This document shows positions 13,110 to 30,469 of a stretch of DNA of 41,163 nucleotides, one piece after another. Position 1 is the stretch's first letter, and every line of letters begins with the position of its first letter. The notes under the pieces were generated by a model. That model did not search any database, had not been told where the DNA came from, and saw only the letters and a list, made by a program, of their open reading frames with translations. Source of the DNA: Nitrospirota bacterium (lineage in GTDB: Bacteria; JACPQY01); the NCBI GenBank assembly GCA_016190245.1, contig JACPQY010000021.1, forward strand, positions 1-41,163, written 5' to 3'. The translations under genes were made by a program, and so were the position numbers.

Positions 13110-13127
13110 GAGAGCGGTGCCTTTCCC

Positions 13128-13680: not shown

Positions 13681-13681
13681 C

Positions 13682-15780: not shown

Positions 15781-16590
15781 CTATTCGCCCTTGAAGGCGG
15801 GCCGTCGCTTTTCCAGGAACGCTTTGCGGCCTTCCTCGAGGTCGCGAGTCCCGGAGAGGACGGCGGCCTGAGTGAATTCATAGTCCAGGCCGTGGTACAG
15901 GGGTGTTTGTTCGGCCCATCGGAGGGCCTGCTTGAGGGCTCTGAGGGCGAGGGGCGCGCGTTCGAGGATCTGGGCTGCCCAGGCGCGCGCAGCCGGCAGA
16001 GGATCCGGGTCCTGCGTAAGGCGGTGGACGAGGCCGATGGACAAGGCCGTGGCCGCGTCCACGGGTTCGCCCGTGAACAGGAGTTCGCGAGCGCGGGCGC
16101 TTCCGATCAGCCGCGAAAGCCTCTGCGTACCCCCGGCCGACGGGATGGCCCCGATCTTTCCCTCCGGGAAGCCAAGACGGGCCGTGGTGGAGGCGATCCG
16201 CAGATCGCAACAGAGGGCCAGTTCGCATCCGCCGCCGAGGACCTGACCGGCCAGGGCCGCCACCACAGGCGTGGGGAACGTCTCGACGGCTTCGAAGAGG
16301 CGGCGGCTCTTTTCCAAGTGGCGCGAACGGTCGAAGGGGCTCGAGGACCGGCTGCGCTGGCGCTCCTCGGCACGTTCCTTCAGGTCCGCGCCGACGCAGA
16401 AGGCCTTCTCGTTGCCGGCGAGGATCAAGCACCGCAGTTCGCTCGCGCCGGAGAGCATTCCGAGCAACTCCTGGAGTTCCGCGATCATCTGGAAGCTGAG
16501 GGCGTTGAGCCGCTCGGGGCGGTTGAGGCGGACGACCGCCAGACCCGGATCGCGCTCGACGAGCAGCGTCGCGTACGCCATCGCGGCCAT
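15781..16590 (-). CDS. Enoyl-CoA hydratase/isomerase (crotonase family)
   Basis: A 269-residue crotonase. CVGADLKE and the glycine-rich GQVLGGGCELALCCD form the oxyanion hole, and both hydratase glutamates are present: FPEGKIGAIPSAGGTQRL and the Glu of ARELLFTGE. It is therefore likely an active enoyl-CoA hydratase adding water to a 2-enoyl-CoA in the cytoplasm. The ATG overlaps the stop of the upstream SDR by one base (TGATG), so the two are coupled and would catalyse successive hydration and oxidation steps. A second in-frame ATG lies nine bases further in. It is the last gene of the acyl-CoA cluster before the TRAP promoter. Confidence 0.9.
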   Translation of the reverse strand: MAAMAYATLLVERDPGLAVVRLNRPERLNALSFQMIAELQELLGMLSGASELRCLILAGNEKAFCVGADLKERAEERQRSRSSSPFDRSRHLEKSRRLFEAVETFPTPVVAALAGQVLGGGCELALCCDLRIASTTARLGFPEGKIGAIPSAGGTQRLSRLIGSARARELLFTGEPVDAATALSIGLVHRLTQDPDPLPAARAWAAQILERAPLALRALKQALRWAEQTPLYHGLDYEFTQAAVLSGTRDLEEGRKAFLEKRRPAFKGE

Positions 16591-17375
16591 CAGACCATGG
16601 AGTAGCCGCCGCTCACACTCAGGGTCTGCCCGGTGATGAACGAGGCCCGGTCTGAGGCGAGGAAACAGACGGCGGATGCCACGTCCTCCACCTCCCCGAA
16701 GCGCCCGATCGGATATCGTTTGAGGACCTTTTTCTGCCGCTCCTCGAAGGCCGCCTCGCCCATCTGCTGCTTCATCCGGGCGTAGAGCTCCTGGATGTGG
16801 TCCGTCATGGTCGCGCCGGGGGAGACGCAATTGACGTGGATGCCGTGGCGGCCCACCTCGCGCGCGAGGGCCTTGGTGAAGCCGATGATGCCGGCCTTCG
16901 CGGCGGAGTAGACGACCAGGCCCGGCTCGCCGACCCGGCCTGCGTCTGAGACAATGCTGATGATCCTCCCGAAGCCACGCTCGATCATGCGGGGCAGGGC
17001 GGCACGTGTGGAGTGGAGCGTGCCGTAGAGGCAAACGCCGAGCACGCGGTTCCAGTCGGAGGACTGCGATTTTGCGAACGGGCCGCTGTCGCCGATGCCG
17101 GCGCAGTTCACGAGGATATCGAGGGGCGGAAGCCGCTCGTTGAGCGTCTTGAACATGGCGCTGACCTGCGTCTCTTCGGAGACGTCGGCGCAGAGCGCCA
17201 AGGAGCCTCGCCCGAGGCCCGACACCTCGGCGGACACGGTGTGCGCCGCCTCCCCACGGAGATCGTTAATCGCCACATGGCATCCTTCCCGGGCGAGGGC
17301 AAGAGCGATGCCTCGCCCCATGCCCTGTCCCGCGCCGGTCACAAGCGCCACGCGATCTTTGAGACCGAGGTCCAT
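16590..17375 (-). CDS. SDR-family 3-hydroxyacyl-CoA dehydrogenase or ketoreductase (FabG-like)
   Basis: A 261-residue classical short-chain dehydrogenase starting MDLGLKDRVALVTGAGQGMG; an ATG at 17399 in frame would add eight residues with no family character. The cofactor loop TGAGQGMGRG, the structural NCAG and the catalytic Ser...YSAAK (SIVSD...VVYSAAKAG) are all present, and the C-terminal VCFLASDRASFITGQTL is typical. It oxidises or reduces a hydroxyl on a CoA ester using NAD(P). Coupling to the downstream enoyl-CoA hydratase and proximity to four acyl-CoA dehydrogenases point to the 3-hydroxyacyl-CoA oxidation step. Substrate specificity is not readable. Confidence 0.9.
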   Translation of the reverse strand: MDLGLKDRVALVTGAGQGMGRGIALALAREGCHVAINDLRGEAAHTVSAEVSGLGRGSLALCADVSEETQVSAMFKTLNERLPPLDILVNCAGIGDSGPFAKSQSSDWNRVLGVCLYGTLHSTRAALPRMIERGFGRIISIVSDAGRVGEPGLVVYSAAKAGIIGFTKALAREVGRHGIHVNCVSPGATMTDHIQELYARMKQQMGEAAFEERQKKVLKRYPIGRFGEVEDVASAVCFLASDRASFITGQTLSVSGGYSMV

Positions 17376-17379
17376 GCTA

Positions 17380-17468
17380 GTGAGCCGCGAGTCCGCCATC
17401 GGGCGGAGAGCCGTGAGCCGAAAGCGGGGGATGGCGGAAGGACAAAGGCGAAGGGCAAAAGGCGAGTT
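17380..17468 (-). repeat. Degenerate heptad-repeat gap upstream of the SDR gene
   Basis: The gap between the SDR and the upstream dehydrogenase is built of similar seven-base words. From 17434 they are GCGGAAG, GACAAAG, GCGAAGG, GCAAAAG, then GCG; GTGAGCC occurs at 17380 and 17413. The phase is continuous from 17413 to about 17465 and less regular before that. No promoter stands out. Confidence 0.5.
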
Positions 17469-17477
17469 GCCGCACCA

Positions 17478-18542
17478 TCACAGCGTTGCCGCGACACGGT
17501 CCAGCATGTCGGCGCCGGCGCCTTTGTTGATCATCCAACCCTTCGCGCGCCGGTAATACAGTTGAAGGTTCGTCTCGGCCATCACGCCGTAGCCGGCGAG
17601 GACTTGGTGGGCGTTCTTCGTGGCCGTGTAGGCGGTCGCGTTGGCCCAGAACTTGGCCATCGCGGCAAGGCGCGGTGCGGCTCGCCCCGTCGAGATCGCC
17701 CAAGAGGCCTCGTAGACGAGCAGGCGGAGCCCCTCGATCTTGACGCGGATGTCGGCCACGAGATGCTGCACGGCTTGGAAGCTCCCGATGGGTCGGCCGA
17801 ACTGTTCGCGCTGTTTGGCGTGCTCGACGGCGAACTCCAAGGCCCTCTCGGACATGCCCAGGAGATAGGCAGCGGCGAGGACGGACGCCCTGGTTTGGAC
17901 CAACTCCCAAGCATGGGCGGGCAGGATGTGGATGTTCTCCTTCCCGAGGGGGCAGTCCTTGAGCCTGACATGATAGAGGCGTTCCCCGCTCGTCACCTCC
18001 ACGGGCTCGGCCCGGAGGCCCTTGGACTGCGACGGGATCAAGAGCAGGCGCGGTGAACCTCGACCTTCCGCGATGGCGAGGAGGAGATCGCTCCCGGCTG
18101 CATAGGGGACGAAGCGAAGCGATCCTGTCACGCGGCCGGGCGTTGCACGCAGCCTGAGCGCCCCCACATGCAGCGTGAGTGTGCAGAGTGTGTCTCCTCT
18201 CGCGAGCCTGGAGAGGAGCTTGTTCCAGCCACCTGAGGCGGGAAGTTCTCGGAGCAGAAGACCTGCCACGACGGTTTCCAGGATCGGGCCATGGGGCAGG
18301 TGATGGCCCATCTGATGGAAGAGGATCGTGAGGTAGTCGAAGGGTTGGCCCAGCCCGCCGGCTTTCTCGGGGAGTGCGATCCCCAGCCAGCCCATGTCGG
18401 CCATCTTCTTGATCGTCTCGCGGGAAAAGCCGAGCGGCTCACCTTCCCAGCGCCGAACGTGCGCCGGCGTGCACTCCGCGGCGAGAAATTCCCTCACGCT
18501 CCGGGCGAAGATCTCTTCCTCCTCGGTCCAGCGCAGGTTCAC
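17478..18542 (-). CDS. Acyl-CoA dehydrogenase-like subunit lacking catalytic Glu (probable partner subunit)
   Basis: The 354 residues have the ACAD helical N-domain (WTEEEEIFARSVREFLA), a shortened middle beta domain without the TEP-x-AGSD FAD-binding loop, and a C-domain with KQREQFGRPIGSFQAVQH. At the usual catalytic position the sequence runs ETNLQLYYRRAKGWMINKGA, with neither the EGT motif nor its Glu. This is the pattern of the second subunit in alpha2-beta2 ACADs such as FadE28/FadE29 of mycobacterial steroid degradation. The neighbour at 18760-19938 has the complementary features, so the two probably form one enzyme. The start is GTG 18542, inside one arm of an inverted repeat. Confidence 0.85.
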   Translation of the reverse strand: MNLRWTEEEEIFARSVREFLAAECTPAHVRRWEGEPLGFSRETIKKMADMGWLGIALPEKAGGLGQPFDYLTILFHQMGHHLPHGPILETVVAGLLLRELPASGGWNKLLSRLARGDTLCTLTLHVGALRLRATPGRVTGSLRFVPYAAGSDLLLAIAEGRGSPRLLLIPSQSKGLRAEPVEVTSGERLYHVRLKDCPLGKENIHILPAHAWELVQTRASVLAAAYLLGMSERALEFAVEHAKQREQFGRPIGSFQAVQHLVADIRVKIEGLRLLVYEASWAISTGRAAPRLAAMAKFWANATAYTATKNAHQVLAGYGVMAETNLQLYYRRAKGWMINKGAGADMLDRVAATL

Positions 18543-18757: not shown

Positions 18758-18759
18758 GG

Positions 18760-19938
18760 CTATTCCTTCCCGCTGGGCAGGCCCAGGCCGCGGATGGCGA
18801 TGATGTTCTTCTGAATCTGGGTGGTGCCGCCGCCGATCGTGCTGGCCGGACAGTGCCGGTGGAGGTATTCGATCTTTCCCCTCAGGGGCGCTGAAGGCGA
18901 GGCCGCCGTGACCTGAGCCTCAGGACCCAGAACGAGGCCGCCGACATCCGCGCACTCGTGGTAGAGCTCGCTCGTGAAGAGCTTGGAGATGGCTGCTGGG
19001 ATGTCGAAGGGAAGCTTGTTCTCCTGGAGCCACGCCGCCTGGTAGTAGAGGAGGCGGGCGATCTCGAGCTTGGTCGCGAATTCTGCGATCGCTCGCCGGA
19101 TCGTGTCGTCCTCCCAGACGCGCCGGCCGTTCGGGGTGGTCTCGCGGGCGCGAACGATCATCTCGCCCAGAAGACGCTTCATGTTCCGGGTCCCGCCGAG
19201 TCCCGTGCGTTCCTCGCCCAGACTTTTCGTCAGACATACCCAGCCCTGATTCAGGCCGCCGACCATCGCGGACGGTGGAACCGGCACCTGATCGTACTGT
19301 AGCTCGGACACCACCCATCCGCTCATCGTCTTGATCCGGTTTGCCTTGAAACCGGGCAGGTTGGTGGGCACGAGGAACAGGGTCAGCCCCTTGTGTTTCG
19401 GGACGTTCGGGTCGGTCCGCGTCAAGGTCAGGATGAAGTCCGCGATGTGGCCACTACTGACGAAAATCTTGCTGCCGGCGATCCGGTAGACGTCGCCGTC
19501 GAGAACGGCCTTCGTCCTGCAGGCGGCCGCGTCGGACCCTGCATTGGGTTCAGTGATGCCCAGCGCGCAGACGATCTCGCCCCGGGCGATGCGGGGGAGA
19601 AGGTCGCGCTTCTGTTCGTCGGAGCCGTACATGAAGAGCGACTGTCCGACGAGCCCCACAGAGGTGCCAACCGCGCCCACGGGGGCTTCGTGGAGACCGA
19701 CGACCTCGGAGAAGACGGCCATGGCCACACGGCCCAAGCCCTCGCCGCCGTACTCCTTTGGCCAGCCGAGAGAGAGCAGCCCCGCCGCCGCCATCTTTCG
19801 GTGGAACTCGGGATCGTAGCCGTCCGAGCCTTCAGCAGGGGGGGGGCCTTGTTTGCCGCGGCGAGGAAGGTGTTTCTTGCAGAAGGCTTCGATCCGCCGG
19901 CGGAGGGCTTCCTGCTCGGGGGTGAATGAAAAGTCCAT
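18760..19938 (-). CDS. Acyl-CoA dehydrogenase (alpha2-beta2 type, FAD-binding subunit)
   Basis: A 392-residue ACAD beginning MDFSFTPEQEALRRRIEAFC. The FAD/substrate loop GITEPNAGSDA and the KIFVSSG strand are intact. At the C-terminus the motif is TIGGGTTQIQKNIIAIRGLG: Gly stands where MCAD-type enzymes carry the catalytic Glu of EGTTQIQ. TIGGGT is typical of steroid-type heterotetrameric ACADs, which use a Glu from elsewhere and pair with a degenerate subunit. The gene immediately downstream is such a subunit. It would introduce a 2,3 double bond into a CoA ester and pass electrons to ETF; no ETF genes are in the window. Confidence 0.9.
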   Translation of the reverse strand: MDFSFTPEQEALRRRIEAFCKKHLPRRGKQGPPPAEGSDGYDPEFHRKMAAAGLLSLGWPKEYGGEGLGRVAMAVFSEVVGLHEAPVGAVGTSVGLVGQSLFMYGSDEQKRDLLPRIARGEIVCALGITEPNAGSDAAACRTKAVLDGDVYRIAGSKIFVSSGHIADFILTLTRTDPNVPKHKGLTLFLVPTNLPGFKANRIKTMSGWVVSELQYDQVPVPPSAMVGGLNQGWVCLTKSLGEERTGLGGTRNMKRLLGEMIVRARETTPNGRRVWEDDTIRRAIAEFATKLEIARLLYYQAAWLQENKLPFDIPAAISKLFTSELYHECADVGGLVLGPEAQVTAASPSAPLRGKIEYLHRHCPASTIGGGTTQIQKNIIAIRGLGLPSGKE

Positions 19939-19941
19939 ACG

Positions 19942-19976
19942 GGACTATCGCCAATGGACTATAGACGATGGAGGAG
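19942..19976 (-). repeat. Heptad-repeat array 5' of the dehydrogenase gene
   Basis: Immediately upstream of the ATG at 19938, seven-base words run GGACTAT, CGCCAAT, GGACTAT, AGACGAT, GGAGGAG. It belongs with the arrays at 17380, 23681 and 27375. Confidence 0.5.
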
Positions 19977-20003
19977 GGGGGCGCAAAGGGCCGCGGCCGC
20001 GAC

Positions 20004-20077
20004 GTAGGGACCGATTCCCACCGCGGGGCGTTCTACGCCCTCGGTCCGAACTTGGACGGATGAGAATCCGTCCCTAC
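20004..20077. repeat. Nested palindromic repeat
   Basis: GTAGGGACCGATTC (20004-20017) pairs with GAATCCGTCCCTAC (20064-20077) at 13 of 14 positions. Inside are two smaller hairpins, GGGCG/CGCCC around 20026-20040 and GGACGGAT/ATCCGTCC around 20054-20073. A related palindrome, GTAGGGACGGCG...CGCCGTCCG, lies at 30928-30952, so this is probably a dispersed repeat. It touches the stop codon of the small ORF at 20074. Confidence 0.6.
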
Positions 20078-20280
20078 TTCTTGGCGGGCTTGGACTTGCG
20101 CTTGGGGGAGGGGGAAACTTCAGGTGCAGGAAGATTACACGCCTTGGCGACTTGGGTGGCGAAGCAGTCCATGTTGAAATACATCAAGGCATAGGCCTCG
20201 GAGGTGAGGGGTTTGGGGGTTGCACCTTCGGGGACGGGGCAATCGAATTCTTTGCAAGAGTTGGATTCGACGAATTGCAT
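20074..20280 (-). CDS. Hypothetical protein, 68 aa
   Basis: The first in-frame ATG close to the coding-like part is at 20280. The product is MQFVESNSCKEFDCPVPEG followed by a hydrophobic/aromatic middle (EAYALMYFNMDCFATQVAKA) and a Lys-rich end (PKRKSKPAKK). Four Cys residues lie at irregular spacing. I do not recognise a family. The frame stays open upstream into palindromic repeat sequence, so the gene may be the 3' remnant of a longer one truncated by the repeat at 20299-20480. It sits between DUF35 genes and the dehydrogenase pair on the same strand. Confidence 0.4.
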   Translation of the reverse strand: MQFVESNSCKEFDCPVPEGATPKPLTSEAYALMYFNMDCFATQVAKACNLPAPEVSPSPKRKSKPAKK

Positions 20281-20298
20281 GAACTCCGCGGCGCGCTG

Positions 20299-20480
20299 CC
20301 TGCCCGCCGAAGTCCGCCCGCCGTGGCGGACTGGACAGGCGGGAAGCCCGCGACTACCGAAGAACCTGGGTGTGGGGGGGGATGTACCGGGCCATTCCGG
20401 CTTCCGCAAGAATGACAGCCTGCGGATGACTTCTCCGTGTCACTGCGGATTCCGCGCGTCCCGCGGGATCGGCACGACGT
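20299..20480. repeat. Palindromic intergenic repeat sequence
   Basis: CCCGCC and AGTCCGCC at 20303-20318 pair with GGCGGACT and GGCGGG at 20325-20343. Further on, a stretch around 20393-20424 (CATTCCGGCTTCCGC, then AAGAATGACAG) resembles the dispersed CATTCC...GAATGAC palindromes of many bacterial genomes. No coding frame with family character is seen. Confidence 0.5.
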
Positions 20481-20502
20481 AGGAGTTTCGGCAGGCGGGG
20501 GT

Positions 20503-20976
20503 TCAGCAGGTGCTTCCGGGCACGAAGCACACGATGTCCTCGATGCTGCCGATGCGCTCGGCGCGCCAGCGGGCGCGGACGCGCAGGGTTTGGGGCAGCG
20601 GGCCCGGCGGGATGTCGCCCAGGATGTGCGTGAAGGAGCTGTCCGCGCCGTCCAGCCGGATCTTGGCGAAGATGATGGGAGGCTTCAGAGCCTGGCCGGG
20701 GTACTCGAGGAGGTAGGGAACGATCGAAGTGGCCATGCCGGTGTCGGGCAGATCGACCCATTCGCTCATCGGCGCGAAACATCGGCCGCACGTGGGCAGG
20801 GGGGGAACCAGCACGCCGCGACACGAGGGGCAGCGGATTCCGAGGAGGCGGCGTTCGGTTCTGATGGCCTCGAAGAAGCGCGTCCCGAGACGGCCCAGGC
20901 TCCACGTGTACTCGATTTCCATCCGCCCCTTGATCTTGAGGGGAGGGGGTGAGCCTTCCGAAACTTGGTTGCTCAT
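20503..20976 (-). CDS. DUF35 / OB-fold Zn-ribbon protein (thiolase partner), copy 1
   Basis: From ATG 20976 the protein has 157 residues. An N-terminal helix (EYTWSLGRLGTRFFEAIRTE) is followed by a rubredoxin-like zinc ribbon CPSC...CGRC and an OB-fold (IIFAKIRLDGADSSFTHILG), the DUF35 architecture. Such proteins act as obligate partners of thiolase-fold enzymes: they scaffold archaeal thiolase/HMG-CoA synthase and form the Ltp2-ChsH2(DUF35) aldolase in steroid catabolism. Its ATG overlaps the stop of the second DUF35 gene by four bases, and two thiolase-like genes lie directly upstream, all overlapping, so a multi-subunit complex is likely. Confidence 0.87.
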   Translation of the reverse strand: MSNQVSEGSPPPLKIKGRMEIEYTWSLGRLGTRFFEAIRTERRLLGIRCPSCRGVLVPPLPTCGRCFAPMSEWVDLPDTGMATSIVPYLLEYPGQALKPPIIFAKIRLDGADSSFTHILGDIPPGPLPQTLRVRARWRAERIGSIEDIVCFVPGSTC

Positions 20977-21380
20977 GCCTCGGCTTCGAACCCGCGGAGG
21001 GCGTGAATGGAGAGATCTGGGGTCTCTGCCCACACTGCTCTCACGCGCGTGCCGGGAGTGGGCGGAGTGTCGCCCAGGTAATAGTGGAGGAGAGAGGTGT
21101 CCGCCCCGTCCAGGCGGATGAGCGCAAAGGTCGTGGCGGTCGAGGTGTGATGCGTGGCGGTTTCGATCACACCTGTTGGGGACAGCGGCACCGGGATTTC
21201 GGTTCGCCCGAGGCATTCCGGGCAGAACGATTTGGGTGGGACGCTGACGCGGCGGCAGCGCCCGCAGCGCGAGCCGACGATCTGGCGGCGGGAGAGGTGC
21301 TCAAGGAATACCGTGCCCGCCCGCCCGGCGTTCCAGGCGAATTCCATGGTGAGCTTTCCGCGGATGAGATCAATCGCCAT
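20973..21380 (-). CDS. DUF35 / OB-fold Zn-ribbon protein (thiolase partner), copy 2
   Basis: A 135-residue DUF35 protein with helix FAWNAGRAGTVFLEHLSRRQ, zinc ribbon CGRC...CPEC and OB-fold strands (TFALIRLDGADTSLLHYYLG). It shares order and the IRLDGADxS segment with copy 1, so the two are ancient paralogues. It overlaps the upstream thiolase-like gene by 11 bases and the downstream DUF35 gene by four. The one-to-one stoichiometry of two thiolase-fold and two DUF35 genes suggests matched pairs or a hetero-oligomer. Confidence 0.87.
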   Translation of the reverse strand: MAIDLIRGKLTMEFAWNAGRAGTVFLEHLSRRQIVGSRCGRCRRVSVPPKSFCPECLGRTEIPVPLSPTGVIETATHHTSTATTFALIRLDGADTSLLHYYLGDTPPTPGTRVRAVWAETPDLSIHALRGFEAEA

Positions 21381-22548
21381 ATGTCTTGCCCAGCACCATC
21401 ACGGACGTGAACTGCTGATTTCCACCCCAGCCCATGGCCACGGCCGTGGAGACGTCCGGTACTTGATGGGGTCCGGCTTTCCCGCGCACCTGTTGTGTCG
21501 CTTCGACGATCCGCAGGAGCGCGGCATCGCTGCCGTTGTTCGTGCAGAGCACCCCTCCTGAGGGGTTGAGGGGGATATCGCCGTCGCGGTCCGTGGCGCC
21601 GGAGAGAAATAGTTCTCCACCTTTTCCCGGGTCGCACAGGAGGAGGGCCTCGCTCCAGATGAGTTGCTGGAAGGAGGCTGCATTGTAGAGTTCGACGACA
21701 TCGATTTCGCGGCGGGGGTCGCGGATGCCGGCCATCCGATAGGCCTTTTTCGCGCTCTCGCGCACGGGGCGGGCCTCGAGCGGATCGCGGCCGGGGTAGA
21801 TGCTCGGTTCGCTGAACGCGCCGAAGCCCCTGACCCAGGCGCAGTCGCGTTCTCTCCCGAGCTGTCGGACTTTTCGTTGCGAGGCGAGGATGACAGCCGC
21901 TGAGCCCACCGAGGTGGGGCACATGTCGAGGAGCTTGATGGGCGGGGCGAGAGGCCGGGAGGAGAGCACTTGGTCCAACGTGACGGCCTCCCTCAGGTGG
22001 GCGAAGGGGTTGAGCGCCCCGTTGGCCCGTTGCTGGACGGCGCAGCGGGCGGCGATCTCCTCGGTAACGCCGGTTCGGGCCATGTAGTCGCGGAAGGTTT
22101 GGGCGAGGCCGAGGAGCGCACCGCCGGAGAACCCGCGGCGGAAGATCGGGTCGGCGGCCATGGCGAGCGCCTTTTGCGCCACCGCGCCTGTCGCGCCGGA
22201 TCTCAGCGTGCCTGCCGCGGCCAGGGCCACCTCGACTTCCCCCGAAGCCACGAGATAGAAGGCCGCGAGGGCGGCGGAGGCCCCCGCCGTGCCGCCCGTC
22301 TGCGTGCGAAACGAGGGACGGAGGCGCCCGGCGATGGCATCAATCACGAGTTTCCCATGGTGTTCGATGCCATCCTGGATGGACGTGATCGCGGAGCCGA
22401 AAACGGCCGCCTCGATGTCGCGCGCCTCGATCCCCGCGTCCTCCAAGGCGGTGGCGACAGCCTCGTGGATGAGCTCGGCATCGTCCACCTCGTCGCGCGA
22501 GGAGGCGTGGACGGTTTGGCCGGTGGCAAGGATGGCGACGGGGGTCAT
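21370..22548 (-). CDS. Thiolase-fold protein without thiolase catalytic residues (possible aldolase), copy 1
   Basis: From ATG 22548 the protein has 392 residues and the SCP2-type thiolase fold: MTPVAILATGQT start, repeated core domains, and LNPSGGVL. The nucleophilic Cys of CASG is missing (QTGGTAGASA). The ELHD-type His is replaced by Tyr (VELYNAASF), and the GHP His is gone (CTNNGSDAA). It cannot work as an ordinary thiolase. Ltp2-type retro-aldolases of steroid side-chain degradation are thiolase-fold enzymes without the Cys that use Tyr residues and need a DUF35 partner; two DUF35 genes follow here. Aldolase function is inference; a structural role is the alternative. Confidence 0.85.
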   Translation of the reverse strand: MTPVAILATGQTVHASSRDEVDDAELIHEAVATALEDAGIEARDIEAAVFGSAITSIQDGIEHHGKLVIDAIAGRLRPSFRTQTGGTAGASAALAAFYLVASGEVEVALAAAGTLRSGATGAVAQKALAMAADPIFRRGFSGGALLGLAQTFRDYMARTGVTEEIAARCAVQQRANGALNPFAHLREAVTLDQVLSSRPLAPPIKLLDMCPTSVGSAAVILASQRKVRQLGRERDCAWVRGFGAFSEPSIYPGRDPLEARPVRESAKKAYRMAGIRDPRREIDVVELYNAASFQQLIWSEALLLCDPGKGGELFLSGATDRDGDIPLNPSGGVLCTNNGSDAALLRIVEATQQVRGKAGPHQVPDVSTAVAMGWGGNQQFTSVMVLGKTYGD

Positions 22549-23711
22549 GGCGACCGCCGTCCGCCGACCACCGGCGCTCGCGGCCTTCTGCTTGAAAGGA
22601 CGAACACGGTGTTCGACTGCATGGCGATCCCGCTCGTGCCGTGGGCGAGGGCGAGAGGATCCCCGCGACGAATGGCGTCTGTCGCGTCCGCGATGCGGCC
22701 CAGACCTGCCGCCACGAGGGCCCGGGCGCTGATGAGGCCGCCGGAGGCGTTGATGACCGGCCCGAGGCGATCTCCGGGGTCTTGTGTCCACAGATGCGCC
22801 CCGCGGCCGGCATCAGCCAGGCCAAGCGCCTCTGCGATCATGAAGGCATGATAGGTGGTGGGCTCGGAGATCTCGGCACAAGCGGCCTCCCGGCGCGGGT
22901 CCTTTAGCCCGGCTTGATTGAAGGCGCGTTCGGCAGCGAGACACAGGCTGCGGATTTCGGCCGTCGGGCGCTCGCCGACGTCATGGGTGTCCACAGCGAG
23001 CGCTGCACCCGCGATCCACACCGGGGCGTGGTGCGGGGATAGGGCATCGGCCGTTCCCAGGACCAGCGCGACCGCGCCGTCGGCCTCGTGCGGGAGATCG
23101 CAGGCACGAAGGGGAGACGAGACGACATCCGTGCTCGGGGCGGCCGGAGGCATCTCGGCGAGCCACGGGTTGCGCGCGGCGGTTTGCCGGGCCTGTTGGA
23201 GGAGCGCGTCGGCGTCGGCGGGTCCCACGCCGTAGCGGTGGGCATACGCGGCGGCCTGCAGGGTGAGGGTAATCGTGTCCGTCAAGCCCAAGGGCCGGTG
23301 AAGGACCGGATTGAACATCATGGACGAATAGGCCTCCAGCGACAGGGAGGTGGACTTGGAATACGCGAATACGAGGGCTGTTCTGTGGAAACCGGAGCGG
23401 AGGCGGATCCAGGCGTAGTACGCGGCAGTGGCCCCGTCCTCTTCGAGCTTGACCTCCTCTTTGAGCATGCAGCCCGCGGCGGCGAGAAGCTCTGTGTTGG
23501 AGATGCCTTTGCCGTCGAGGAGATCGATCCCTGCATCCACGACGGTGTCGATCTCTCCCGCTTCCATGCGGGCATCGGCCAGCGCGGCGCGAACGGCCGC
23601 GTCCACCATCTCGAAGTGCGTTGCGTTGGAGCCCACTCGGAAGGGGATGCGGCCGATGCCGAGGATGGCGACGGGCTTCTGAGATTTGAGATCTGAGATT
23701 TCAGATTTCAA
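22545..23711 (-). CDS. Thiolase-fold protein without thiolase catalytic residues, copy 2
   Basis: A 388-residue thiolase-fold protein with family start KPVAILGIGRIPFRVGSN and core segments VVDAGIDLLDGKG and INASGGLIS. All catalytic positions are lost: the Cys loop reads KLEEDGATAAYY, the ELHD His is Ser (EISEPTTY), and GHP is ARALV. The likely start is TTG 23711, because no ATG or GTG lies between it and the conserved region. The first ten residues (KSEISDLKSQ) are encoded by a heptad-repeat array, so the true N-terminus is uncertain. It overlaps copy 1 by four bases. Probably a non-catalytic partner of copy 1. Confidence 0.82.
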   Translation of the reverse strand: MKSEISDLKSQKPVAILGIGRIPFRVGSNATHFEMVDAAVRAALADARMEAGEIDTVVDAGIDLLDGKGISNTELLAAAGCMLKEEVKLEEDGATAAYYAWIRLRSGFHRTALVFAYSKSTSLSLEAYSSMMFNPVLHRPLGLTDTITLTLQAAAYAHRYGVGPADADALLQQARQTAARNPWLAEMPPAAPSTDVVSSPLRACDLPHEADGAVALVLGTADALSPHHAPVWIAGAALAVDTHDVGERPTAEIRSLCLAAERAFNQAGLKDPRREAACAEISEPTTYHAFMIAEALGLADAGRGAHLWTQDPGDRLGPVINASGGLISARALVAAGLGRIADATDAIRRGDPLALAHGTSGIAMQSNTVFVLSSRRPRAPVVGGRRSP

Positions 23712-23743: not shown

Positions 23744-23749
23744 GGGGTG

Positions 23750-24901
23750 TCACGTCTTGAAGCCGAGCGTTCGCTCGGCGATCACGATGCGCTGGATGTT
23801 CGAGGTGCCTTCGCCGATCTGGTACATCTTGGCATCGCGGAAAAGGCGTGCCACCGGGTATTCTTCCGAATACCCGTACGAGCCGAAGATCTCCACGGCC
23901 CAGTTGGCGACCTTCACGACCGCCTCCGAAGCGTGATACTTGGCGATCGCGCCGGACATCGTGGCCGGTTCGCCGCGTTGCAGGCGCGCGGCGTGGTCCA
24001 GCACGAGGAGGCGTGTGGCCTGCTCGAGCACGGCCATCTCGGCGATTCTCTCCTGAACCATCTGGAACCGGCCGATCGGCTTGCCGAAGGCCTCACGCGA
24101 GCGCGCGTAGTCCACGCCGGCTTCGAGGCAGGCGCGGAGCACGCCCAGGGCGCCGGCGGCGACCGAGAGGCGGCCGCGGTCCAACGATTCCATCACGATC
24201 CTGAACCCGGTCCCCTCGGGCCCGATCCGGTTCTCCTCGGGCACCTCGCAGTTATCGAAGATGATCTCTCCGGTGGGGGAAGCGTGATGCCCCAGTTTCT
24301 CGCGGTACTCCCTCGCGGTGATGCCGGGGCACGAACGATCGACCACGAAGAGCGTCAGGCCTCCGTAGCGCTCACGATCGTCGGTACGCGCGAGCACCAG
24401 CCCGGCGTCGAACACGGTGGCGTTGGAGATCCACGCCTTCGTGCCATTCAGGATGTAGCGGTTTCCCCGCCGCGTCGCGCGCGTGCGCGTGGCCGCGACG
24501 TCGCTCCCGGCATGGGGCTCCGTGAGGGCGAAGAAACCCATCCACTCCCCCATCACGAGTTTGGGCACGTAGGTCGTCTTCTGCGCCTCCGTCCCGTGGT
24601 GCAGAATCGTCATCGGGCAGGTGAGGGCCTGAGTATTGAAGAGGTGGCGGAGCGAGGACCAGACACGCGAGATCTCTTCCGTGACGAGTGCGTGCGCGGT
24701 GAATCCCGCCTCCGTTCCGCCGTAGGTTTTCGGGAGGGCGCATCCGAAGAGCCCCAGTCGGCCCATCTCGCGCGCCAGGTCTTGCGGGAAGGCTCGGCGG
24801 GCTTCGTGATCCGTCACAAGCGGACGGATGGAACGCTCGGCGAAGTCTTTTGCCGCATCGCGGATGGCCGCTTCTTCGGGCGTGAGGGTGCAGTCTACCA
24901 A
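23750..24901 (-). CDS. Acyl-CoA dehydrogenase (canonical catalytic Glu)
   Basis: A 383-residue ACAD: CTLTPEEAAIRDAAKDFAER start, FALTEPHAGSDVAATRTRA (FAD/substrate loop), AWISNATVFD, and AFGKPIGRFQMVQERIAEM. The C-terminal IGEGTSNIQRIVIAERTLG carries the catalytic Glu before GT. It is a complete homotetrameric short-chain/glutaryl-CoA-like dehydrogenase that forms a 2-enoyl-CoA with electrons passing to ETF. The start is TTG 24901 with AGGAAAC upstream; no ATG fits better. It is the first gene of the cluster's left half, divergent from the small gene at 25051, and a hairpin lies in its leader. Confidence 0.92.
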   Translation of the reverse strand: MVDCTLTPEEAAIRDAAKDFAERSIRPLVTDHEARRAFPQDLAREMGRLGLFGCALPKTYGGTEAGFTAHALVTEEISRVWSSLRHLFNTQALTCPMTILHHGTEAQKTTYVPKLVMGEWMGFFALTEPHAGSDVAATRTRATRRGNRYILNGTKAWISNATVFDAGLVLARTDDRERYGGLTLFVVDRSCPGITAREYREKLGHHASPTGEIIFDNCEVPEENRIGPEGTGFRIVMESLDRGRLSVAAGALGVLRACLEAGVDYARSREAFGKPIGRFQMVQERIAEMAVLEQATRLLVLDHAARLQRGEPATMSGAIAKYHASEAVVKVANWAVEIFGSYGYSEEYPVARLFRDAKMYQIGEGTSNIQRIVIAERTLGFKT

Positions 24902-24930
24902 GGGCGTGTTTCCTGGTACGGTGCGGGGGA

Positions 24931-24951
24931 CTGGAGCGGGAAAGGCTCCAG
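24931..24951 (-). promoter_or_regulatory. Hairpin in the leader of the dehydrogenase gene
   Basis: CTGGAGC (24931-24937) and GCTCCAG (24945-24951) form a perfect seven-base stem with a GGGAAAG loop, about 30 bases upstream of the TTG start at 24901. It has no T-run, so it is more likely an operator or mRNA leader structure than a terminator. Function unknown. Confidence 0.3.
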
Positions 24952-25000
24952 CGGTATGTGAGGTTCACGTGTGACGTTGAGGCAAAAGCTCACAAAGTCC

Positions 25001-25029
25001 TTGACGTTTGTATCGGGGCCGTCTATCCT
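25001..25029 (+). promoter_or_regulatory. Sigma70-type promoter for the small hypothetical gene
   Basis: TTGACG (25001-25006), a 17-base spacer, then TATCCT (25024-25029). The predicted start at about 25036 precedes the ribosome binding site AGGAGGT at 25040-25046 and the ATG at 25051. Confidence 0.5.
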
Positions 25030-25050
25030 TAAGCAGGTAGGAGGTGCTGT

Positions 25051-25437
25051 ATGCCGATGGTTGGGAATGTCCAGGGCGCAGGGAACATGGGAGATCAACT
25101 CGGCTCCAGCGGGGTGTACGGGAACCGCGGGGCGCGGCGCCAGGGAGAGGAATACGAGGTAGCCGCGAAGCCGATCAATGCGGAGCCCGGGACACACCTG
25201 AACAACACGGTCCGGACGGAGAATCATCAGCAGATGATTGCTCGCAGCGATTTCATCGATCCGCCCGGAAGCGTAAAGGAGTCCATTGATCTTAGCACGA
25301 CGGGTTTTCAGGAGATCAAGGACGCCACGACGTCGGTCCGCGTCTCGCTCGAGTACCAGAACCGGCTGAACGGGGCCTACGACCAGGGGATTTACCAGCG
25401 GGTCACGAGCAACTCGCTGGATCAGGGCCAACCGTAA
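25051..25437 (+). CDS. Hypothetical soluble protein, 128 aa
   Basis: ATG 25051 is preceded by a near-perfect Shine-Dalgarno GTAGGAGGTGCTGT and a promoter. The protein is polar and Gly/Asn/Gln-rich, with no signal peptide or membrane span: a start MPMVGNVQGAGNMGDQLG, a middle with NNTVRTENHQQMIARSDF, and an end SLEYQNRLNGAYDQG that looks helical. I do not recognise the family. It is the only plus-strand gene within 15 kb of minus-strand acyl-CoA genes, splits that cluster in two, and ends 14 bases before the converging hydratase gene. A regulator is not supported, as no HTH is visible. Confidence 0.7.
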   Translation: MPMVGNVQGAGNMGDQLGSSGVYGNRGARRQGEEYEVAAKPINAEPGTHLNNTVRTENHQQMIARSDFIDPPGSVKESIDLSTTGFQEIKDATTSVRVSLEYQNRLNGAYDQGIYQRVTSNSLDQGQP

Positions 25438-25451
25438 CCCTTCCCGGGGCT

Positions 25452-26192
25452 TCATCTTTTTTCGGCGAATTTCGTGAGGCGGACGGCCGCTTGGCGCGAG
25501 CGCGCCAGGCGCCTGGCGAGGGTGGACTCCAGTTCGAGGGCGCGATCGAGCGGCATTTGCAGGCCGCGGGTGACGGCCGCTTTCGCCGCCAGCAGTGGCT
25601 CGATCCCCGCGGCGCAGAGTTTATCCGCAAGCTGGTCGGCCTCGCGTTGAAGAGCCTCGCGCGGCACCACGCGACCTACGAGGCCGATGGCGAGGGCCTC
25701 TTTCGCCGTTACACTCTCGCCGGTGAGGATCATTTCGAGCGCCTTGCCCGTGGGGATGAGACGGGGGAGCCGCTGCGTCCCTCCGCCTCCGGGGATGAGA
25801 CCGCGATGAACCTCGGGGAGTCCGAGTTGGGCATCCTCGGCGGCGATCCGGAGATCGCACGCGAGCGCCAGTTCCAGCCCGCCGCCGAGCGCGAGGCCAT
25901 TGATGGCGCAGATCACAGGCTTCCTGACGCGCACGCCCTTGTGAATGCCGCGGGGCCTTCGAGTCCCTCCCGTTCGGCTGCGGGCCGCGAGTTCCTTGAG
26001 GTCCGCCCCCACGCAGAAGGCCCGCTCGCCTACGCCCGTCAGGATCGCCACCCAAAGGTCGTCGTCGCGGTCGAAGGCGAGCCACGCCTTCCGAAGCGCC
26101 TCCAGGGTGGCGACGTTGAGGGCGTTGAGAACCTCCGGGCGGTTGAGCGTCAGGCGGAGGACGTGTCCGCGCCGTTCGATTTCGAGGCTCAC
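25452..26192 (-). CDS. Enoyl-CoA hydratase (crotonase family)
   Basis: A 246-residue crotonase starting with GTG 26192 ([20 protein letters not shown]). It has [10 protein letters not shown] and [20 protein letters not shown] for the oxyanion hole, and both catalytic glutamates ([20 protein letters not shown] and [10 protein letters not shown]), so it should be an active 2-enoyl-CoA hydratase. It follows an acyl-CoA dehydrogenase by 10 bases and ends the right half of the cluster (CoA ligase, DUF35, thiolase, dehydrogenase, hydratase), nearly a complete beta-oxidation set. It is a distant paralogue of the hydratase at 15781-16590. Confidence 0.92.
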
Positions 26193-26202
26193 GCAACCTC
26201 CA

Positions 26203-27363
26203 TCATCGGAAGGCCTTGAGCCCGAGCAGTTCCCGGCCGATCACGAGCTTCTGAATCTGCGTGGTGCCGTCGGGGATGGTGTAGCAGCGTGCGTCCCGGT
26301 AGTAGCGTTCCACGCGGTACTCTTCGGCGAGGCCGTAGGCGCCGTGAACCTGGAGCGCGTCGGACGTCACCTTGACGGCGGCCTCCGTGGCGAAACTTTT
26401 GGCCATGGCGGCCGCCTTCGAGGCGGGTCGGCCGAGGTCGAGGCATCGCAGGGCGTGGTAGGCCATCCAGCGGGCCGCGGAAGTCAGCGTGGCCATGTCC
26501 GCCAATAGCTCCTGGACAAGCTGATAGGAACCGATGGGCTTCCCGAACTGGCGGCGCTCGCCGGCGTAGGAGAGGGCGATGTCGAGAGCCCCTTGGGCCA
26601 CGCCAACGCTCCCCACGGCTGCATTGGCCCTCGCCAAGTCCAGACCTCGAAGCGCCGTTTTCAGTCCGTCGCCGACGTCGCCAAGGAGATTCCCCTCCGG
26701 CACAGTGACGTCGCGGAATGAGAGCTCGGAGAGGGGGCAGGCACGGAGGCCCATCTTCGGAATGTTGCGTGCCTCAAAGGGCGATTCGTTCCTGTCCACG
26801 ATGATTCGCGTCGGCCCGAGGAGCTTCTTCCCATCCACGACGCGCGCGAGGACGATGCAGACATCGGCGATCGAGCCGTTGGTGATCCACGTCTTGGTGC
26901 CGTTCAGGATGTAGCGGCCGCCCTTGCGCGTGGCGGTCATCCGGATGCCCTGAACGTCCGAGCCCGCCTCCGGCTCGGTGATGCCGACACAGCCGATGGA
27001 TTCGCCGCTGAGGAGCCGGGGGATGAAGCGCTTCTTCTGGTCGTCTGTTCCGAGCTCGGACAGAGTGCGCGCGGCGGATGTGGTGATGCTGCAGATGCCG
27101 CCGGCCGAGGCCCAGACGCGCTTGAGTTCTTCGAGCAGGAGGCCGTAGGTGAGGAAGTCCAGCCCCATTCCGCCGGCGCTCTCGGGCAGGATGCCGCCGA
27201 CGTAGCCGAGGGGAGCGAGTCGGCGCAGGAGATCCTGGGCGTCCGACCGGCCGAGCGGTCCGCGGCGGTCCATCTCGTTGGCCGAGGGCGCGATCTCACG
27301 GGCGATGACCTTCCGCGCGGCCTCGAGGAGCTGCTGCTGGATGGAGGTCAGATCGAAGTCCAT
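26203..27363 (-). CDS. Acyl-CoA dehydrogenase with Asp at the usual catalytic Glu position
   Basis: From ATG 27363 the 386 residues show a standard [73 protein letters not shown]. The C-terminal motif is [20 protein letters not shown], where PDGT replaces the usual EGT. Asp may serve as a shorter base, or the enzyme may take its base from another helix; some cyclic-substrate ACADs also use Asp, so a ring or branched substrate is conceivable. The upstream leader consists of heptad repeats. It sits between thiolase and hydratase genes in the right half of the cluster. Confidence 0.9.
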
Positions 27364-27374
27364 CGCGTTGCGGT

Positions 27375-27456
27375 GAGAATCGCGAATCGCAAACCGGAAG
27401 TCGAAGGGCAAGAGGTGGGAGCCCCAGCGATTCTCGATTCCCGATTCACGATTCGC
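27375..27456. repeat. Heptad arrays including GATTCNC x4 at the thiolase-dehydrogenase junction
   Basis: At 27429-27456 the word GATTCNC is repeated four times in exact phase, with N being T, C, A and G in turn. From 27375 the opposite orientation appears as GAGAATC, GCGAATC, GCAAACC, GGAAGTC, GAAGGGC. The two arrays can pair as a hairpin. The right array overlaps the last codons of the thiolase gene and supplies its TGA stop. Confidence 0.75.
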
Positions 27457-28606
27457 GGTCCCTCACGAAGATATGCACCGAGGCCGCGCCCGATTCGGCG
27501 CCGCTGACGCCGCCGCCCATCGTGTGGGTCATGCCGACTCGGGCGTCGGCCACTTGTCGGTCGCCGGCCTGGCCGCGGAGTTGCCACGTGACCTCGCAGA
27601 CCTGGGCGACACCCGTGGCGCCGAGCGGATGGCCCTTCGAAAGCAGCCCTCCCGAGGGATTCACGCACACCTCGCCGGTCATCCCGCTGCGTCCTTCCTG
27701 GATGAACCGTCCGCCCTCGCCTCGGGCACAGAAACCGAGGTTCTCGTAGTGGGCCAGTTCGGCCGCCGTAAAGCAATCGTGCAGCTCGCACAGGTCCACG
27801 TCCCGCGGTCCGAGTCCGGCCTGGTTGTAGGCCACTTGCGCCGCGTTCGTCGTCGCGCGGGAGACGGTGATGTCCCACTCGGCCCCTATGCGGGGTTCGC
27901 CGGAAAGGAGGACGCTGGCGGCCACGCGAACGGAGGCATCGAGGCCGAGGCGACGGACGAGGTCCTCGCCCGCCACCACGGCGGCGGCCGCCCCGTCGCC
28001 GATGGGGGTGCACTGAAGCAGGGTGAGGGGATCGCAGATCATTCTCGACCCGAGAACCTCCTCCGTCGTCACTTCTTTCCTGTACTGCGCGCGCGGGTTG
28101 CGTGCGCCGTGCGCATGGTTCTTGACGGAGATGAGGGCGAGTTGCTCGCGCGTTGTGCCGAAGCGGGCCATGTGCTGTTGGGCGAGCATCGCAAACACCG
28201 AGGGCATGACGCGACCCATCGCGCCCTCGAGGTCGTCCTCGCGCGGGGGGATCACGCCCTTGATCGTGCTGGAGAGTTTGTCCATCCCGACGGCCAGGGC
28301 TGCGTCCGCCATCCCGTGAGCCACTGCAAGAACGGCGTAACGGAACGCGGATGAGCCCGAGGCGCACGCGTTGTCCACATTGAGGATTTCCATCCCGGTG
28401 AGGCCGAGATCGGCTAGGACGCGCTGGCCCGCGCACGTGCCCTGGCGAGTGTGACCGAAAAAGGCCATCTGGATTCGGCGGGGCGGAAGGCGGCTGTCCC
28501 GGAGGGCCTCGACGACCGCGGCGCGCGCGAGGTCCTCGATCCTCGTCTCGGGGAACTTGCCGAAGGGCGTCATCCCGACGCCGACAACGTAGACCTTGCG
28601 TTCCAT
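27446..28606 (-). CDS. SCP2-type thiolase (acetyl-CoA acyltransferase-like)
   Basis: A 386-residue thiolase with the catalytic set intact: nucleophile Cys in NVDNACASGSSA, CELHDCFT, and the general-base His in SKGHPLGATG. HTMGGG replaces the C-terminal CxGGG, as in SCP2/SCPx-type thiolases. It would cleave a 3-ketoacyl-CoA with CoA to give a shortened acyl-CoA plus acetyl- or propionyl-CoA. A DUF35 gene ends nine bases upstream and is presumably its partner. This is the only apparently active thiolase in the window, in contrast to the two degenerate ones at 21370-23711. Confidence 0.93.
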   Translation of the reverse strand: MERKVYVVGVGMTPFGKFPETRIEDLARAAVVEALRDSRLPPRRIQMAFFGHTRQGTCAGQRVLADLGLTGMEILNVDNACASGSSAFRYAVLAVAHGMADAALAVGMDKLSSTIKGVIPPREDDLEGAMGRVMPSVFAMLAQQHMARFGTTREQLALISVKNHAHGARNPRAQYRKEVTTEEVLGSRMICDPLTLLQCTPIGDGAAAAVVAGEDLVRRLGLDASVRVAASVLLSGEPRIGAEWDITVSRATTNAAQVAYNQAGLGPRDVDLCELHDCFTAAELAHYENLGFCARGEGGRFIQEGRSGMTGEVCVNPSGGLLSKGHPLGATGVAQVCEVTWQLRGQAGDRQVADARVGMTHTMGGGVSGAESGAASVHIFVRDRES

Positions 28607-28615
28607 GCGGCTAGG

Positions 28616-29023
28616 TCACGTCGCTGGACGGAACTTGTAGCACCAGATTTCTTTCCCGCCCTGTTCCCGCAGCGGACCGGCGGTCAATTCCATCGGGCGC
28701 CCGATCATCAGGTCGTCTTCCTTCCATTGATCGAGGAGGGCGAACACGCGAACACCCTCGGGAAGATCGATGTAGCCGATGGCATAGGGGCCGGGCAGAT
28801 GGGGCAGGGGAACCCGGCAGATTGCGTAGGAATAGAGTGTGCCGCGGTCGGAAAGATTGATGGACTGCACCTCCGTGGTGAAACACCGTATGCACCACGG
28901 GCGGATGGGGAACATCACGAGCCCGCAGGCGGCGCAGCGGGCGCCCAGCAGGCGAGGGGGATCGCCGGGGCCGGCGGGGATTTCGAAAACGTTTGGCAGA
29001 AAGGGGGCGCGTTCCGGGGGCAC
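28616..29023 (-). CDS. DUF35 / OB-fold Zn-ribbon protein (thiolase partner), copy 3
   Basis: Starting at GTG 29023, 135 residues show the zinc ribbon CAACGLVMFPIRPWCIRC followed by OB-fold strands (GTLYSYAICRV, YAIGYIDLPEGVRVFALLD). This is the DUF35 fold that accompanies SCP2-type thiolases; the thiolase gene begins nine bases downstream and the CoA ligase lies seven bases upstream. It is more distant from the other two DUF35 copies than they are from each other (LPEG where they have LDGAD). Likely role: docking of acyl-CoA or complex assembly with the 27446-28606 thiolase. Confidence 0.88.
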   Translation of the reverse strand: MPPERAPFLPNVFEIPAGPGDPPRLLGARCAACGLVMFPIRPWCIRCFTTEVQSINLSDRGTLYSYAICRVPLPHLPGPYAIGYIDLPEGVRVFALLDQWKEDDLMIGRPMELTAGPLREQGGKEIWCYKFRPAT

Positions 29024-29029
29024 GGTGGG

Positions 29030-30469
29030 TCAGGACCCCGTAGACGGGGTGTGGTACTTTCGTTCGAAGACCTCGCGCTTTCCGGCGGGCTTCGGGAGGG
29101 TGTTCGGAGACATCCACTGGATCTCCGGAGAGACCTTCAGGCGGGTGTGGAAGAGATCCTTGATGCGCAGCTCGATGGCGGGGAGGCGACCCTCGGCGCC
29201 GGGCGCGTGCTCGATCTTGAGCCGGAGTGGTGGGGTAACTTTCGGCGGAGGTTCGGTCAGGACGATCCGGAATTCCCCCGTCAGATCGCACGGCTGGAAG
29301 GCCGCGAGCACGCCTTGAATCCCGGCGGGATACACGATCACGCCTTTCACCTTTAGCATGTCATCCGTGCGGCCGACAAATCGCGAGCGGTATCCCGTGG
29401 CCCCGCAGGGGCAGGGCCGTACGAAGACCTGCTGGAGATCGCCGGCCGTGTACCTTATGAATGGCGCCGCACCCGGCCACAGCTGGGTCGTCACGAGTTC
29501 CCCGACCGCGCCCTCCTCGAAAGGGATCGGTTCCCGAGTCTCGGGATCGATCAATTCGTAGTAGTAGAAGTCATCCATCAGACGGTGAAGGCCGTAGTAG
29601 GACGTCTGCCCGATCCGTTCCCGCGGGGGAGAACAGGACATGTTGGGACCTTGCAGGTCGAAGACCCGTGCGCCGTAGGCGTCTTCCAGCCGGTGCCGCG
29701 TGTCCTCGATGCCGACGCCTGCCTCGCCTCCCAGGAGGAGGACTCGGAGGCCGAGCGAGCGGACTTCTTGGCCGATGACCCCCGGCGATTGTTCGATGAG
29801 GTGCAGGGCCAGCGACGGGGTGGCAAGAAGGGCGTGGGGACGCGTGAGTCGTGCGAACTTCAGCAGGCGAGCCGAGCCCGCCTCCGCGCCCACGGGCACG
29901 ATGCCGAGGCCGAACGCGCGCGCCGCGAAGACGTTCGGGATCCCGCCGACGAACATGCCGAGGCCGAAGCCGATCATGACCCGCATGCCCGGCCTGAGCC
30001 CGGCCCGCCAGAAGGCGCGCGAGCGCCCTTCGCACCAGACGGCCAAGTCTTCATCGGAGAAGAGGTAGAACGTGGGTTCGCCTGTCGTCCCGGATGTGGC
30101 ACAAAAGAGTCGCAGATCCTCCCGGGGTACGGCGAGGGTCGTTCCCAGTCCGTGCCCGGCCGCCCGCAACGACGTCTCCTGGGCACTGCGGTGATCTTCC
30201 TTCGTGAACAGGGGGACGGTGGCGCGGAAGTCTTCAAATGAGCGGATGGCGCGGGGACTGATCCGGTGGGTCCCGAAGAGATCTTGGAAATAGCGCGAGT
30301 GGCGGGAGACGTGCGTCAGGACGCCTCGGAGCCGACGAAGGCGCAGTGCATTGAGGCGGGCCGTGCCAAGCCGCGGCTCCACGCGCATGTTCCAATAGGG
30401 GCGGGCGGTGCGCGGTACTGTGTGGTGTGTGGACTTGCGGGCGCTCCCGCGTCGGGAGGGCGTGCTCAT
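29030..30469 (-). CDS. Phenylacetate-CoA ligase-like acyl/aryl-CoA synthetase (PaaK family)
   Basis: The 479 residues match the PaaK branch of the ANL superfamily: early RPYWNMRVE, LFTKEDHR, the AMP-binding loop CATSGTTGEPT, FIRYTAGDLQ, and CPCGATGYRSRFVGRTDDML-KVKG in the C-terminal hinge. It would activate a carboxylic acid with ATP and CoA, the entry step for the dehydrogenases downstream. PaaK homologues accept aromatic and other cyclic acids, and many divergent ones have unknown substrates. ATG 30469 is preferred over ATG 30388 because the conserved YWN lies between them. It is the first gene of the right half of the cluster. Confidence 0.88.
   Translation of the reverse strand: MSTPSRRGSARKSTHHTVPRTARPYWNMRVEPRLGTARLNALRLRRLRGVLTHVSRHSRYFQDLFGTHRISPRAIRSFEDFRATVPLFTKEDHRSAQETSLRAAGHGLGTTLAVPREDLRLFCATSGTTGEPTFYLFSDEDLAVWCEGRSRAFWRAGLRPGMRVMIGFGLGMFVGGIPNVFAARAFGLGIVPVGAEAGSARLLKFARLTRPHALLATPSLALHLIEQSPGVIGQEVRSLGLRVLLLGGEAGVGIEDTRHRLEDAYGARVFDLQGPNMSCSPPRERIGQTSYYGLHRLMDDFYYYELIDPETREPIPFEEGAVGELVTTQLWPGAAPFIRYTAGDLQQVFVRPCPCGATGYRSRFVGRTDDMLKVKGVIVYPAGIQGVLAAFQPCDLTGEFRIVLTEPPPKVTPPLRLKIEHAPGAEGRLPAIELRIKDLFHTRLKVSPEIQWMSPNTLPKPAGKREVFERKYHTPSTGS

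Follow-up and report, generated by a model that had tools for sequence, protein, structure and literature searches.

What does a run of 14 genes for coenzyme A (CoA) ester chemistry do in a Nitrospirota bacterium? The run, called the island below, lies on contig JACPQY010000021.1 (assembly GCA_016190245.1), which in its full length of 41,163 nucleotides is the window analyzed here; it is contig C6 of a 3.29-Mb genome (G000) that is 84.8% complete. All 14 genes are on the minus strand and span 15781 to 30388 (30469 with the longest open reading frame (ORF) of the ligase). An earlier reading made from the sequence alone (the sequence-only reading) had listed these genes, and each one that it named was present and in the one direction. 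Its proposal of a CoA-ester degradation island with steroid-type α2β2 dehydrogenase subunits and a lyase-like complex of thiolase-fold and DUF35 proteins is supported by the sequence comparisons below. The balance tips slightly toward a role in degrading a carboxylic acid, bulky or branched, in the form of its CoA ester, by β-oxidation combined with a retro-aldol branch.

Conservation of the island and its border

A first survey covered 145 genomes, most of them sole representatives of distant families, and found the thiolase-fold protein THL3 at 63% identity in one, G015, which belongs to a different phylum from G000. The end of one G015 contig (C13) carries PaaK-DUF35a-THL1-ACAD1-ECH1-ACAD2 and the end of another (C57) carries ACAD2-THL2-THL3-DUF35bc-ACAD-MaoC-MaoC-ACAD3-ACADd-SDR-ECH2 (THL, thiolase-fold protein; ACAD, acyl-CoA dehydrogenase; ECH, enoyl-CoA hydratase; SDR, short-chain dehydrogenase/reductase). 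Within ACAD2 these contig ends share a 317-bp overlap (99.4% identity), so the G015 cluster is very probably contiguous. Gene order and orientation are identical to those of the island, with identities from 29% (ACADd) to 65% (SDR); DUF35b and DUF35c form one fused 307-aa protein in G015. Since this order is kept, the island is a real conserved unit, beyond chance. The single region described by the sequence-only reading thus holds as a unit, although in the window it is interrupted by two gaps. ECH1 and ACAD2, separated by the gap at 24902–25451, are adjacent in G015, and the site corresponding to the gap at 19939–20502 holds ACAD-MaoC130-MaoC123 there; a search of this second gap for a MaoC remnant found none. 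The same reading had advised looking for this gene order elsewhere together with steroid-ring genes: the order was found in one genome, G015, in which such ring genes have not been found so far.

The island is absent from G001, the sole same-family relative of G000, whose best THL3-like match (41%) lies in another cluster. Its occurrence in two phyla and absence from this sister genome suggests horizontal transfer, in a set that held two genomes from the phylum of G000 and one from that of G015; the island is probably an accessory, horizontally shared element. Base composition was uninformative as a sign of transfer (66.3% GC in the island vs. 63.5–65.6% in the flanks). In wider searches at most four first-look candidates were scored per genome, so that an empty result is not proof. 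Within this scope, the 395 genomes from the Desulfatibacillum phylum that were searched at E 1e-95 gave no close THL3 orthologue, and at E 1e-90 there was no THL3 match in 400 genomes from the phylum of a Dehalococcoidia genome or 398 from that of a Woeseiaceae genome. Among 386 genomes searched as relatives the one close match was again G015. Directly upstream of the island ligase, G015 has a further THL3-DUF35-THL2-DUF35 set (L034:7526-13141) with a thiolase and an HMG-CoA-synthase-like protein that has a DUF35-like end; the THL2 of this set is split into two ORFs, perhaps by a frameshift.

The sequence-only reading had also described the island as flanked by a tripartite ATP-independent periplasmic (TRAP) importer, TatT-DctP-DctQ-DctM (11835–15698, minus strand; PF16811, PF03480, PF04290), an adjacency that we judge coincidental, with the importer outside the island. 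Synteny speaks against membership: G001 has TatT-DctP-DctQ-DctM-metK-ahcY-GFO-GT2-PDA in one block (53–79% identity) without the island, and in G015 the TRAP genes are on a separate contig (G015's own C6), behind serS- and obg-like genes. A sigma-70-like promoter, TTGACA-16-TAGAAT, precedes TatT at 15709–15736 on the minus strand (11/12 matches); two promoter-like sites were observed in 16.7 kb vs. 1.4 expected by chance. From the location of the TRAP genes in the two genomes and the promoter site between ECH2 and TatT, we place the island border at ∼15780. That the importer supplies the island substrate is very improbable: adjacency in the window, and nothing more, speaks for it, whereas the G001 genes keep their metK-ahcY neighbors where the island is absent, the G015 genes lie elsewhere, and TatT has a promoter of its own.

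The thiolase-fold pair and the heteromeric dehydrogenase

THL2 (22545–23711) and THL3 (21370–22548; ∼62–63% to G015) are followed by DUF35b (20973–21380; PF12172, 34.5 bits) and DUF35c (20503–20976; PF12172, 28 bits; 42% to the fused G015 protein). The overlaps of 4 nt (THL2/THL3), 11 nt (THL3/DUF35b), and 4 nt (DUF35b/DUF35c) suggest coupled translation of the four genes. Loci from 80 genome contigs and three others yielded 71 adjacent THL pairs, and a first tree was built from 147 sequences including the window's pair, THL1, BbsB, and Ltp2. Upstream (A, THL2-like) and downstream (B, THL3-like) members were split 72/72 each with support 0.89, and THL1, BbsB, and Ltp2 were placed on the B side. 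After addition of four named Actinomycetota and Cupriavidus pairs the A clade was still pure (76/76, support 0.68), with two B sequences outside the best B-only clade. The pair is ancient and is found in Lokiarchaeota as well. THL2 and THL3 would form a heteromer in which THL2 is presumably the non-catalytic, Ltp4-type partner and THL3 the catalytic, Ltp3-type aldolase subunit.

The B members share an active site that is not that of a thiolase. Gly occupies the nucleophile position (Gly86 in THL3) in 71/71, Tyr288 is likewise kept in 71/71, and Asn337 replaces the thiolase His in 70/71; the equivalents of Gly86, Tyr288, and Asn337, and the Pro common at position 290, are not fixed among A members. 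In the aldolase CtSal the base is Tyr302, the acid is Cys304, and the substrate hydroxyl is contacted by Gly89; the catalytic Tyr and the Gly have the same roles in TcLtp2 (PMC12329534). THL3 resembles the bile-acid aldolase CtSal-Shy, and Ltp2/Sal aldolases in general, in its thiolase fold, the Gly in place of the nucleophilic Cys, the catalytic Tyr of the YDxF motif, and a DUF35 partner. It differs in that its thiolase-fold pair is heteromeric and in position 290, the equivalent of Cys304, where THL3 has Ala and 62/71 homologues have Pro (the alignment excludes the region of Tyr344, the general acid of Ltp2). THL3 therefore has the base and the Gly of Sal but not the Sal acid. AlphaFold models gave the thiolase fold for both THL3 (predicted local distance difference test score (pLDDT) 88) and THL2 (pLDDT 87). 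In a Foldseek search with the THL3 model, Ltp2 and Sal came after SCP2 thiolases, archaeal acetoacetyl-CoA thiolase, and BbsB, so the fold does not decide the function.

The best NCBIfam models were PRK08313 for THL3 (314 bits, cut-off 514 not reached) and PRK07937 for THL2 (134 bits, cut-off 419 not reached). On a Tsukamurella plasmid, a DUF35 gene stands with PRK07937 (593 bits) and PRK08313 (734 bits) proteins, both over the cut-offs; ∼6–7 kb away are genes whose annotations read cytochrome P450 and steroid 3-ketoacyl-CoA thiolase. We equated this pair with Ltp3/Ltp4 by family models and gene order rather than by reference sequences, taking PRK07937 to stand for Ltp4 and PRK08313 for Ltp3. 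Ltp3-Ltp4 is described in a review (PMC6678751) as a heteromeric aldol-lyase for C24-branched sterols. Like it, THL2 and THL3 are adjacent proteins from two thiolase-fold clades beside DUF35, and their best models are those passed by the Tsukamurella pair; unlike it, the window has two stand-alone DUF35 genes and no steroid-ring genes nearby, and the scores below cut-off make the relationship distant.

The sequence-only reading had counted four acyl-CoA dehydrogenases. Four genes are indeed present, but they are two ordinary enzymes and one split heteromeric pair. The nearest solved structures of ACAD3 (18760–19938) are Tcur3483 (E 2.6e-65) and 4x28_A (E 1.3e-64), with the next only at 2.3e-43; those of ACADd (17478–18542), which has an RxQFG motif and a middle domain unrecognized by Pfam, are Tcur3481 (E 9.3e-33) and 4x28_D (E 2.4e-27). 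The two neighboring genes thus each rank the matching subunit type of two solved α2β2 dehydrogenases first, ACAD3 by a wide margin. We take the 4x28 chains to be ChsE4/ChsE5 and both the 4x28 and the Tcur3481/Tcur3483 structures to be steroid dehydrogenases. ACAD3 and 4x28_A share GGGT where EGT is usual, and the GEER of ACAD3 aligns with NHER of 4x28_A. ACAD3 would be the catalytic-type subunit and ACADd its partner in a heteromeric dehydrogenase of the steroid α2β2 type. Pairs of this kind are adjacent in several other loci.

The heteromeric MaoC hydratase of the igr type is absent in the window and present in G015. MaoC123 of G015 has the Asp/His-type motif GDFNPIH and a PF01575 match, both lacking in MaoC130, a contrast that resembles ChsH1 vs. 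the inert ChsH2 domain (PMC11321319). Plasmid pLP1 of Rhodococcus qingshengii carries ACAD-ACAD-MaoC-MaoC-THL2-like-THL3-DUF35 in a row, and the G015 and pLP1 modules both match the igr operon (PMC12502768) in combining dehydrogenase, hydratase, DUF35, and aldolase. Compared with igr/ChsE1E2-ChsH1H2-Ltp2 (Mycobacterium tuberculosis; Comamonas testosteroni TA441 ORF40-44), the island likewise has a heteromeric dehydrogenase, DUF35, and a thiolase-fold aldolase candidate, joined in G015 by one active-looking and one inert-looking MaoC protein. The island differs in having two thiolase-fold subunits rather than one, DUF35 proteins separate from MaoC, no MaoC pair in the window, and ordinary β-oxidation genes.

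Further loci with the pair were noted. Adjacent THL-THL-DUF35 genes, mostly with two DUF35, are found at Lokiarchaeota loci L090, L095, L102, L108, L114, L115, L118, and L128, several of them near ACAD and crotonase genes. G000 itself has a second THL2-THL3-DUF35 cluster (L036; contig C33: 18000-37500), which, by names read from the sequences, also holds crotonases, a DUF849/BKACE-like protein, ACADs, an amidohydrolase-like protein, an alcohol dehydrogenase, and a TetR regulator; G001 (L035) and one Woeseiaceae genome (L066) have clusters that resemble it closely.

Proposed route and competing explanations

The remaining island genes encode what appears to be a CoA ligase and an ordinary β-oxidation set. 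The AMP-forming acyl-CoA ligase (29030–30388; 49% to G015) matched PF14535 above the cut-off (32 bits) and PF00501 below it (25.0 bits, cut-off 29.9); with TIGR02155 it reached 157 bits, far under the cut-off of 646, so it is PaaK-like but not PaaK itself. DUF35a (28616–29023; zinc ribbon and OB fold, PF12172 and PF01796) is the presumed partner of THL1 (27446–28606; 61% to G015), a BbsB-like thiolase that keeps the Cys and His motifs (NACASG, HDCF, HPLGATG). The closest solved relative of THL1 is benzoylsuccinyl-CoA thiolase 7pxp (BbsB; E 7.8e-84). The pair resembles BbsAB in its two-protein make-up, best sequence match, and catalytic residues, but THL1 has HDCF where BbsAB has HDAF, and the scores stay under the curated cut-offs (93 of 250 bits for DUF35a with BbsA, its best NCBIfam model; 332 of 750 for THL1 with BbsB); THL1/DUF35a may thus work like BbsAB without necessarily being the same enzyme. 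The ordinary dehydrogenases are ACAD1 (26203–27411; Asp at the usual EGT position; 57% to G015) and ACAD2 (23750–24901; canonical GEGTSNIQ; 52–57%). ECH1 (25452–26192; PF00378; 48%) and ECH2 (15781–16590; PF00378; 50%), the final island gene, are crotonase-type hydratases, and the SDR (16590–17399; PF13561; 65%) is presumably a 3-hydroxyacyl-CoA dehydrogenase.

In the favored route the PaaK-like ligase would make the CoA ester, which ACAD1/ACAD2, ECH1/ECH2, and the SDR would take through ordinary β-oxidation, the closing step falling to THL1, a Cys-dependent thiolase, and DUF35a. A second branch would operate where the β-carbon is tertiary (ring-attached or branched) and unable to become a ketone. 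There ACAD3/ACADd would form the alkene, a hydratase would add water, and the THL2/THL3/DUF35b/DUF35c complex would cleave the C-C bond by retro-aldol reaction, leaving a ketone or aldehyde once acetyl- or propionyl-CoA is released. THL3 would be catalytic, with Tyr288 as base at the Ltp2/Sal position and Gly86 in place of the nucleophilic Cys, and THL2 an inert partner.

Several observations weigh against this route. THL3 lacks the general-acid Cys of CtSal and has YNAA rather than YDHF or YDCY. The MaoC pair was lost from or never present in the window, and the nearest MaoC of G000 is on another contig and only 43% identical, so hydration would have to come from ECH1/ECH2 or from elsewhere. 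Desulfatibacillum alkenivorans and one Dehalococcoidia genome also have Chs-type dehydrogenase pairs, outside any demonstrated steroid context. The THL pair alone does not fix the pathway, since on contig C33 of G000 it stands beside a BKACE/DUF849-like gene.

Which acid is degraded, and whether the pair is an aldolase at all, can be weighed from the same evidence. The nearest proteins to ACAD3/ACADd and THL2/THL3 come from steroid pathways, and the genes of the G015 island correspond to the igr set, as would fit an operon for the side chain of sterols or bile acids that forms part of a complete steroid pathway. No candidate for the Δ1-ketosteroid dehydrogenase (KstD/AcmB) was found in G000, G001, or G015, an absence that in G000 is not final at 84.8% completeness. 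G000 has a single strong FAD_binding_2 protein, which its start and neighbors mark as SdhA/FrdA-like; G001 and G015 have two each, SdhA- or NadB-like by the same signs. This makes classical steroid-core degradation unlikely; the window also lacks steroid-ring genes, and Chs-type pairs are distributed more widely than known steroid degraders. A steroid operon is thus a poor prospect, though one kept alive by the incompleteness of G000 and by the other ring genes, which were not searched. The substrate had been predicted to be cyclic, branched, or hydrophobic; a bulky or branched acid is probable, and a steroid as growth substrate is disfavored by the missing KstD-like protein. We consider it equally doubtful that the pathway is one for linear or methyl-branched fatty acids, with THL2/THL3 acting as a second enzyme of the Claisen type and not as an aldolase. 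All parts do come from fatty-acid-oxidation superfamilies, and Foldseek placed SCP2 thiolases above Ltp2 and Sal, but a Claisen thiolase needs both the nucleophilic Cys and the HPxG His that the THL3 homologues lack, and the best matches of ACAD3/ACADd are not of the fatty-acid type.

A narrower form of the bulky-acid reading is a fair contender, if short of an even chance: an alicyclic, terpenoid, or alkyl-aromatic acid (e.g., naphthenic or isoprenoid), aerobic or anaerobic, from whose ring carbon the retro-aldol step removes the side chain. THL1/DUF35a is closest to the toluene-pathway BbsAB, the ligase is of PaaK type, the second-best model of the SDR is BadH (226 bits, below cut-off), and modules homologous to this one are frequent among Desulfobacterota, Syntrophaceae, and Lokiarchaeota. 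On the other side, the window has no ring-reducing or fumarate-adding enzyme, and the model scores all stay under their cut-offs. Under the broader reading of a bulky or branched acid, what is new is that a BbsAB-like thiolase branch, a heteromeric Ltp3/Ltp4-type aldolase, and a Chs-type dehydrogenase occur together in one island with no evident steroid core pathway. It would carry side-chain chemistry of the steroid kind into two bacterial phyla that have barely been sampled, in organisms without an apparent steroid core pathway, and it points to a widespread, little-characterized family of two-subunit thiolase-fold proteins whose conserved active site is not that of a thiolase. More speculatively, THL2/THL3-DUF35 might be an ancient obligate two-subunit aldolase of bacteria and Asgard archaea, a third thiolase-fold active-site design (Gly/Tyr/Asn) that cuts branched or ring-attached side chains in many pathways. 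If so, the island might encode a complete route for some bulky natural acid, for example the side chain of a triterpenoid or hopanoid, that is not known to be degraded in this manner.

Other sequences in the window

Between ECH1 and ACAD2, opposite to the island genes, a 128-aa ORF without a Pfam match lies at 25051–25437 on the plus strand, with AGGAGGTG preceding its ATG; the island may have gained a small gene here by insertion. The gap at 19939–20502 contains a palindrome, GGACGGATGAGAATCCGTCC, at 20054–20073, which is possibly a dispersed repeat since similar text, CCGTCCCTACG, occurs in the gap at 30389–31262. Three giant proteins are encoded around the island on the plus strand: one with RCC1 repeats and fibronectin type III (1458–5939), one of the PKD/Ig-like kind (31263–35987), and an RHS-repeat protein (35990–39799).

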